Shown piece by piece: positions 29,457 to 31,267 of a DNA stretch of 64,000 nucleotides; positions within the stretch are counted from its first letter, which is position 1; each line of letters begins with the position of its first letter. The notes below the pieces were generated by a model. The model had not been told where the DNA came from, made no database searches, and worked only from the letters and a program-made list of their open reading frames with translations. Position numbers and translations under genes: made by a program. Source of the stretch: an uncultured Alphaproteobacteria bacterium (lineage in GTDB: Bacteria > Pseudomonadota > Alphaproteobacteria > HIMB59); the NCBI GenBank assembly GCA_902610415.1, contig CACLVL010000002.1:1-64000 (forward strand), in the 5' to 3' direction.

Positions 29457-29615
29457 ATGAATAATAATTGTGAAGTATGCAAAAAGAAAATTATTGAACC
29501 ACTATATTGGGCCGATCCAAAATTTTATAACATCCCAAAAAAGGTATTTTTTTGTGGTGCTGATTGCTCACTAATTTATTATAAGAAAATTAAAAAATTA
29601 TTTAAAATTCAATAG
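29457..29615 (+). CDS. 52-aa putative zinc-binding protein
   Basis: MNNNCEVCKKKIIEPLYWADPKFYNIPKKVFFCGADCSLIYYKKIKKLFKIQ; C-x2-C...C-x3-C pairs. Confidence 0.6.
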   Translation: MNNNCEVCKKKIIEPLYWADPKFYNIPKKVFFCGADCSLIYYKKIKKLFKIQ

Positions 29616-29627
29616 AATCAATATTTA

Positions 29628-29660
29628 TAGCTATGCATATTTTGCACAGCTACTTTTTAA
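29628..29660 (+). terminator. Probable rho-independent terminator
   Basis: TAGCTaTGCA-TATTT-TGCAcAGCTA stem with one mismatch, followed by CTTTTTAA. Confidence 0.5.
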
Positions 29661-29706
29661 TTTCTGCAATTTAATATTGAGCAGATTATTAGTAAGTTTT
29701 TGTTAT

Positions 29707-29770
29707 TCAAGAAACTAGCTCCAACCTTATTCCTATCCTTACTTATTCCTCCGGAGCTAGTTTTATTTAA
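29707..29770 (+). ncRNA. Candidate small RNA: 11-bp hairpin with 30-nt pyrimidine-rich, G-less loop
   Basis: AAACTAGCTCC (29712-29722) pairs perfectly with GGAGCTAGTTT (29753-29763); loop contains TTATTCCT twice and CCTCC; possible weak -35 TTGAGC at 29677 and -10 TGTTAT at 29701; T-rich 3' end. Confidence 0.45.
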
Positions 29771-29839
29771 ATTTCCAAAATATTAAATTTTTTAAGTAGA
29801 ACTTTATTATGCAAATTGAATGCATATAATTTTTAAAAT

Positions 29840-31267
29840 ATGAGTGATCGTTTTATTTTTTGGGATTTGGAGACAACTGGGCGAAATGATAAATTTAATC
29901 AAATCACTCAAGTGGGCGCCGTATTAACAGATCATAACTTTGAAGTTAAAGATAAATTAGAAATACATAGCAAATTAAGAGAGGGAAAATGGTTTGAGCC
30001 AGGTGCTTTAATCACAACTGGTGTTGATCCAAGAAGTTTAATACAAAATAATTATCCAAATTATTACGAAGCAAGCTCTCAATTGTATGAAACTTTTCAA
30101 GAGTGGTCATCCTCATCTGCAATATTTGTAGGTTTTAACAATATAAACTTTGATGAGCCCTTTTTAAGGCAGGCACTCTATCAAAATTTGTTACCTGAAA
30201 TTTATATGACAGTGACAAACAATAATGTCCGTATGGACGTTTTTGATATATTAAGATTAGTTTCAGTATACAGCCCAGAACACATAAAATTTAATATTGA
30301 TGATCAAGGCTATCCTATACTTAAATTAGAGGAGATTTTTAAGCTCAACAAGATTTCAATAAGCTATGAAGCAGGGCCACACGATGCTGTTTTTGATAGC
30401 CTTGTAACCTTAGAGCTTAATAAAATACTAAATGTAAGATGTCCAAAAATTTGGAATGCAGCTTATGAATTTCGTCATAGAGATACTCCAAAAAAGTTCA
30501 TGTTAGAAAATTTAGTATTTACCAATACTACTTTTTGGGGAAGAAGACCGACAATTAAATCTCAAACTCTCATAGGTGGTATTCCAGGAAGAAATCATCA
30601 CTATCTGGTTTATAATTTACATACCGATCCAACTAAGTTAATTGAGTTGAATGACAAAGATCTAATTAAAAAGATGAATGAAGGTGCTTTAAGAATATGT
30701 GAGGTTTTTGATGGCTCAAAATCAAAAACACTTTTAAATGAAAGTTATTCTTTCAAAGATACTAAATATGCAGAATTAGGAGTGGATGAATTAAGAAACA
30801 GAGCAAATTTTATAAAAAAAAATGAAGAGTTTTGTTCAAGGTTGATCAAACTCCATCTATCTAATCAAAAAGAATGGCCTGAGCCTTTTAATGTTGAAGA
30901 TAGAATTTTTGAGAACTTTCCATCGCATCAAGATAAAAAACTAATGATTGATTTTCATACTGCTCCAAACGAAAAGAAGTATGAAATTGCAAAACACTTT
31001 AAAGACGACCGATACAAAGAAATAGCAATAAGAATTTTATATGAAATAGCTCCTCATACTCTCCCTGAAAACGATAAGAGAAACTATGAATTTGAAATAA
31101 AAGAACGTTTTAATGATGATGAGAAATCTAAGTGGAATTCTAAAAACAAAATACTTTCTAGCTTAGACGCTGACTTAGATAGGATAGTAATAGATGAAAA
31201 TGAGAAAATTCAGTTTAAGCAAAAAGTTATAACCTTTTTAAACAATGAGTCAGCAAAATGGGATTGA
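29840..31267 (+). CDS. sbcB: Exonuclease I (SbcB-like)
   Basis: FIFWDLETTGRNDKFNQITQVGAVLTD; NNINFDEPFLRQALY; ExoI C-terminal domain. Confidence 0.9.
   Translation: MSDRFIFWDLETTGRNDKFNQITQVGAVLTDHNFEVKDKLEIHSKLREGKWFEPGALITTGVDPRSLIQNNYPNYYEASSQLYETFQEWSSSSAIFVGFNNINFDEPFLRQALYQNLLPEIYMTVTNNNVRMDVFDILRLVSVYSPEHIKFNIDDQGYPILKLEEIFKLNKISISYEAGPHDAVFDSLVTLELNKILNVRCPKIWNAAYEFRHRDTPKKFMLENLVFTNTTFWGRRPTIKSQTLIGGIPGRNHHYLVYNLHTDPTKLIELNDKDLIKKMNEGALRICEVFDGSKSKTLLNESYSFKDTKYAELGVDELRNRANFIKKNEEFCSRLIKLHLSNQKEWPEPFNVEDRIFENFPSHQDKKLMIDFHTAPNEKKYEIAKHFKDDRYKEIAIRILYEIAPHTLPENDKRNYEFEIKERFNDDEKSKWNSKNKILSSLDADLDRIVIDENEKIQFKQKVITFLNNESAKWD

Follow-up and report, generated by a model that had tools for sequence, protein, structure and literature searches.

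Introduction

In Alphaproteobacteria, small RNAs (sRNAs) with anti-Shine-Dalgarno (anti-SD) loops silence the mRNAs of solute-binding proteins and ntrB (PMC10746234, PMC8844928). NfeR1, of the alpha-r14 ("cuckoo") family of the Rhizobiales, is an RNA with anti-SD hairpin loops and variable stems that has its own sigma-70 promoter, is Hfq-independent and has ABC solute-binding proteins and nitrogen regulation among its predicted or tested targets (PMC10746234, PMC3927594). The sRNAs AbcR1 and AbcR2 (alpha-r15) silence transporter mRNAs at the ribosome-binding site by means of two anti-SD motifs in single-stranded stretches (PMC8844928), and CcsR1-4 of Rhodobacter, associated with DUF1127 and located at the CIN1 locus, modulate C1 metabolism (PMC10253847). 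In streamlined marine Alphaproteobacteria, comparative genomics of the intergenic regions of Ca. Pelagibacter has yielded a further set of structured RNAs, the rpsB, ffh, rhtB, pntA and SAR11_0636 motifs (PMC2704228).

Bacteria of the HIMB59/AEGEAN-169 group, whose genomes are small, abound in the surface waters of the ocean. In this work, we analysed a hairpin within a window of 64,000 nucleotides (the whole stretch of DNA under study) that belongs to an incomplete genome (0.99 Mb) of the HIMB59 genus of marine Alphaproteobacteria, and that an initial annotation, made from the letters alone, had singled out as a candidate small RNA. The hairpin is very probably a real and new structured RNA, specific to its lineage and uncatalogued in Rfam.

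Results

A hairpin conserved in its pairing and in its loop

Direct reading confirmed every element of the hairpin as first described: the perfect 11-bp stem, the 30-nt loop devoid of G, the motif TTATTCCT occurring twice in the loop with a 16-nt period, and the CCTCC at its end (Table 1). The predicted RNA fold has -16.3 kcal/mol and z = -5.0, a stability equalled in none of 200 shuffles, and the hairpins of five relatives gave z values from -4.1 to -6.6. Among the perfect inverted repeats of the window (at least 10 bp, loops of 15-44 nt), this is the only one with a loop longer than 20 nt that contains C and no G. Across the genus, the stem measures 11-12 bp (up to 16 in one relative) and the G-less loop 25-32 nt.

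Table 1 Features of the hairpin locus, in window coordinates
Feature	Position	Strand	Basis
Upstream hairpin TAGCT.TGCA/TGCA.AGCTA	29628..29652	+	Fold -12 kcal/mol, z -2.5; partly conserved in genus; role putative
Putative promoter block of the RNA, relatives' consensus TGCAATTTGACT - 16 nt - TATAAA	29664..29706	+	Alignment, 26 relatives
Stem 5' arm AAACTAGCTCC	29712..29722	+	Read directly; compensatory changes in relatives
G-free 30-nt loop AACCTTATTCCTATCCTTACTTATTCCTCC	29723..29752	+	G in 0/29 aligned copies
Loop module 1, UUCCUAU (complement AUAGGAA)	29730..29736	+	28/29 copies
Loop module 2, CCUUA (complement UAAGG)	29737..29741	+	29/29 copies, one-base shift in some
Loop module 3, UUCCUCC (complement GGAGGAA), anti-SD-like	29746..29752	+	29/29 copies
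Stem 3' arm GGAGCTAGTTT	29753..29763	+	Read directly; compensatory changes in relatives
U-rich tail TATTT, likely RNA 3' end, hairpin doubling as terminator	29764..29768	+	Sequence; 3' end predicted

The hairpins of the main clade are 92-100% identical to the window copy, and the 60-nt flanks 33-67% beyond the closest relatives. Stem letters are largely conserved in this clade, where only G-U changes occur. In three deep relatives (G013, G015 and G024), hairpin and flanks have diverged and every stem pair is retained, with changes from A-U to G-C, from C-G to U-A and from U-A to C-G, and with G-U pairs common; their loops are altered in length, keep the three modules and contain no G. The alignment of stem and loop (29 copies) was fitted to a covariance model; as the stem is ungapped, the pairing result is independent of this fitting. 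Both partners had changed in four pairs, and pairing held in 100% of the cells; neither of these values was reached in any of 500 shuffles, and slid controls gave pairing values far below those of the true stem. The one copy that departs from module 1 is L003, with UUUCUAU. At the level of sequence comparison, these results show that selection acts both on the pairing of the stem and on the letters of the loop, and that the RNA is orthologous across the HIMB59 genus. The initial annotation had held that its candidate would fall if relatives displayed neither compensatory stem changes nor loop conservation; since they display four two-sided pair changes, complete pairing and three preserved loop modules, the candidate small RNA is well supported as far as sequence goes.

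Distribution

A covariance model (E <= 1e-6) detected the RNA in 43 of the 52 genomes of the genus, in one copy each, among them every one of the ten with a completeness of 90% or more; the nine genomes with no match are 50-78% complete. The single copy per genome rules out a repeat element. The exact loop sequence is present in 38 genomes of the genus, and among the GTDB species genomes it was matched on 36 contigs, all labelled as uncultured Alphaproteobacteria, Pelagibacteraceae or HIMB59. In the sister family f2 (111 genomes; 10 with laxer filters) and in 286 other Alphaproteobacteria, neither of two covariance models (R1 and R2) gave a match that rose above noise; the exact loop pattern was not found in viral contigs; and no Rfam 15 family reached its gathering score in the window, the matches at 29600-29850 being only weak (E >= 4.4).

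Some candidate copies were discarded. Loop-only matches in G001 and G003 are located inside protein genes, and TTCCTCCAGTCACTAG in G007 and G155 was not accepted as the RNA, G018 having the same site elsewhere, beside its true copy. The contig of G007 that carries the phosphatase gene (G007:C27:3165-3632) has neither a match to the RNA nor exonuclease I, a possible loss.

Loop complementarity to Shine-Dalgarno sequences

Candidate targets were sought in a complete relative (G030; one contig, 1,410,127 bases), with the starts for the ranking of 6-mers chosen blind to the SD sequence. Upstream of its ATGs, GGAGGA is the most enriched 6-mer (16-fold), TAAGGA the fourth (8.6-fold) and ATAGGA the sixth (7.6-fold). 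The loop carries the complements of all three, which bears out the initial wording "anti-Shine-Dalgarno-like", and a conserved SD-complementary motif in a predicted single-stranded loop is what characterizes anti-SD sRNAs. The count of strongly enriched 6-mers matched by the loop had a p of about 0.01 against shuffled loops; it is only suggestive, because the reversed loop scores equally.

The proteins of G030 whose genes have a GGAGG SD number 66, and at least 23 of them are solute-binding (periplasmic) proteins when non-overlapping Pfam families are counted, compared with no solute-binding family having two members among 130 other proteins. An ammonium transporter and a glutamine-synthetase-family protein are also among the 66. 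A first enrichment of substrate-binding proteins, obtained with phmmer, was dropped because its seeds had been drawn from the GGAGG list itself, which biases the result. The best conserved duplex is that of the loop with a gmaS-like gene (Gln-synt_C, PF00120), whose leader reads GGAGGAAUA in 31 of the 32 matched genomes and GGAGGAGUA in the other, the search pattern itself having required GGAGGA. A UA insertion, present in some loops, gives a 12-bp perfect match with the gmaS-like SD in G030; covariation of the two was rejected, as the gmaS-like leaders of G026 and G149 do not mirror the insertion. In G030, the gmaS-like gene lies in a cluster (G030:C1:1200000-1220000, L219) with mgsABC-like proteins, FAD oxidoreductases, another gene of the glutamine-synthetase family and an ammonium transporter, several of them with strong SDs, which we take to resemble an N-methylglutamate (methylamine) pathway island.

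The further proposal of a global translational regulator gained no support from two comparisons. Over up to 754 ortholog pairs, conserved complementarity to start regions (-8 kcal/mol, two genomes) was found for 15 genes, compared with 11 ± 6 for shuffled loops and with 19 ± 8 for shuffled loops that keep CCUCC; it does not exceed the level of shuffled loops, above all when CCUCC is kept. Likewise, the ratio of GGAGGAA to GGAGG start sites amounts to about 19% for the genus, against 24% for the sister family, which lacks the RNA, and therefore no target adaptation is visible.

Taking these data together, we consider a trans-acting anti-SD sRNA the best explanation of the feature, and probably, though by no means securely, the right one. 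Chemically, pairing of the loop with SD sequences is plausible, and there are good precedents for it; the targets remain candidates. The closest rival is a pyrimidine loop that binds protein. The G-free loop might be the landing site of a cold-shock-domain protein, of ribosomal protein S1 or of a similar single-strand binder; the RNA would then act on that protein, as a decoy or a regulator, instead of pairing as an antisense molecule. Loop letters are strongly conserved although specific mRNA partners do not emerge, and the three deep relatives vary the length of the loop yet keep the three UUCCU/CCUUA modules, as repeated protein sites would. HIMB59 moreover encodes a homologue of CspA, and Hfq was not detected: with E. 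coli queries, RpoB and the CspA homologue were recovered in G030 and no Hfq or ProQ homologue was (Hfq by single-sequence tblastn and phmmer, which is not proof of absence), so that sRNA control in this genome may lack the usual chaperone. Csp proteins have been proposed as post-transcriptional regulators in Pelagibacter (PMC2864753). However, a protein site would not need loop letters that match the SD complements preferred by the genome, and we regard this explanation as unlikely, if still worth serious consideration.

Promoter, neighbours and gene order

The anti-SD sRNA reading supposes a gene of its own, and the surroundings of the hairpin bear on this point. In most of the 26 aligned relatives, a sigma-70-like -10 box, GTATAAA, stands at a fixed position upstream of the stem, and ahead of it come a -35 resembling TTGACT and the conserved block TTGCACA...TGCAATTT. 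The window genome itself has degenerate boxes (TTTAAT/TAAGTT, or the initially annotated TTGAGC/TGTTAT), and a consensus promoter scan of the region upstream of the RNA found none. Of the promoter first proposed, TTGAGC (29677-29682) and TGTTAT (29701-29706) are present, and weak; the -10 of the relatives is placed about 11 nt further upstream than TGTTAT. We infer from the aligned block that the RNA is transcribed from its own promoter. A second conserved element, at 29628-29675, comprises a hairpin or palindrome, TAGCTGTGCAAAnTTTGCACAGCTA, and then the TGCAATTT block, which touches the -35; in several relatives the palindrome is a perfect inverted repeat of 25 bases. This hairpin lies shortly 3' of the stop codon of a small CxxC-protein ORF, and is possibly the operator of a regulator or a terminator-like 3' hairpin of the upstream gene.

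The neighbours in the window are a phosphatase-like gene, the CxxC ORF (52 aa, with no Pfam match) and exonuclease I (ExoI, PF08411). Even in genomes with another downstream gene, the hairpin is accompanied by the upstream order of transaldolase, phosphatase-like gene and small CxxC ORF. This constancy, and the U-rich tail directly after the stem, would suit a 3'-end element of the CxxC gene, be it a terminator, a stability hairpin or a 3'-UTR-derived sRNA, with its loop conserved for processing. We nevertheless consider such an origin improbable, given that a separate hairpin lies just past the CxxC stop codon and is followed by the conserved promoter-like GTATAAA block before the stem, and that 30-nt loops are not conserved in terminators. 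Intrinsic terminators have a GC-rich stem, a short loop and a U run; here the loop has 30 nt and the tail is TATTT, the terminator scan returned none, and because of the loop length a standard short-loop terminator was not called.

In the main clade, 76 nt separate the RNA from the start codon of the downstream ExoI gene, and both have the same orientation, as would be expected of a cis-acting leader or attenuator of this gene. In the three deep relatives, however, the RNA is again preceded by the phosphatase-like gene and, on contigs that extend so far, by transaldolase, but an ABC-transporter operon follows it, and ExoI is found about 4-5 kb beyond the RNA with no adjoining hairpin (G013 and G015) or on a separate contig with no hairpin before the gene (G024). 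The leader reading was rejected on this ground and appears very improbable. Pairing of the loop with the ExoI start region reaches only -6 kcal/mol, and a TATAAT at 29825-29830, 10 nt before the ExoI ATG and conserved in close relatives, suggests a separate promoter and a nearly leaderless ExoI mRNA. As the downstream gene differs in the deep relatives, the RNA is, judged by gene order, an independent gene and not a leader or cis element of one gene. The ABC-transporter operon (L147, L148 and L150) comprises, by eye, an ATPase, a permease and two GldG/DUF4340-like proteins, and is missing from this place in the main clade (window 29763-29840).

Least credible of all is a DNA-level element (a protein-binding inverted repeat) or a chance hairpin, for which the largely conserved main-clade stem letters, with G-U changes only, might speak, but which the compensatory changes of the deep relatives appear largely to refute, as do the common G-U pairs, disfavoured in a DNA palindrome, and the conserved, strand-asymmetric loop.

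Discussion

If the hairpin acts as a trans-acting anti-SD sRNA, its gene would produce an independent non-coding RNA of about 60-70 nt, transcribed from a sigma-70-type promoter of its own, from a start a few nucleotides ahead of the stem to a 3' end at the U-rich tail beyond it. The single-stranded loop would present UUCCUAU, CCUUA and UUCCUCC as three tandem anti-SD modules, and these would pair with the purine-rich ribosome-binding sites AUAGGA, UAAGGA and GGAGGA of several mRNAs and block ribosome entry. The most likely targets would be the genes with the strongest SDs, largely those of periplasmic substrate-binding proteins, together with the gmaS-like glutamine synthetase and the ammonium transporter, and the outcome would be a tuning of nutrient uptake, as with NfeR1 and AbcR in rhizobia. 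It is tempting to go further and to see in it a minimal one-hairpin sRNA, its three anti-SD modules matched to the common SD contexts, that serves throughout the genus as a translation brake on genes with strong SDs (those of nutrient-binding proteins and of gmaS/methylamine and ammonium uptake) in an apparently Hfq-less, streamlined ocean bacterium; in this full form the proposal is tentative and rather doubtful.

Among the described systems, NfeR1, AbcR1/2 and the CcsRs are nearest in mode, and the HIMB59 RNA likely works like them. It is not a member of their families, since none of the defining motifs, arrays or neighbours looked for was found. The motifs of Ca. Pelagibacter are other elements, several of them cis leaders before genes, and the window matches no Rfam family. 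The CcsRs form a four-member tandem array processed from a ccaF1 (DUF1127) transcript, whereas the HIMB59 RNA is present in one copy between its phosphatase-like, CxxC and exonuclease I neighbours, with no DUF1127 gene recognised alongside; the likeness lies in the link to C1 metabolism, the best candidate target being the gmaS-like C1/methylamine gene. AbcR, which binds Hfq, is a multi-hairpin RNA of 114-121 nt that carries the motifs CUCCUCCC and UUCCCCUC and lies beside lsrB; none of these traits of sequence and locus was found for the HIMB59 RNA, whose loop contains neither octamer.

The resemblance to NfeR1 consists in an anti-SD motif exposed in a hairpin loop and in a stem that varies while the loop is kept; a putative sigma-70 promoter of its own, and candidate targets among solute-binding proteins and nitrogen genes, are further parallels. 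NfeR1 has about 115 nt and three hairpins, each with CCUCCUCCC; the HIMB59 RNA has a predicted 60-70 nt and a single hairpin with CCUCC, CCUUA and UUCCUAU. The 9-mer CCUCCUCCC of alpha-r14 occurs in none of the 29 loop copies, which share CCUCC only, and the hairpin upstream of the promoter block is devoid of CCUCC. The two RNAs have no detectable sequence homology and occupy different loci. Should the anti-SD reading be true, the HIMB59 RNA would represent, in a bacterium with no detectable Hfq, a convergent and stripped-down counterpart of the rhizobial regulators of nutrient uptake NfeR1 and AbcR.
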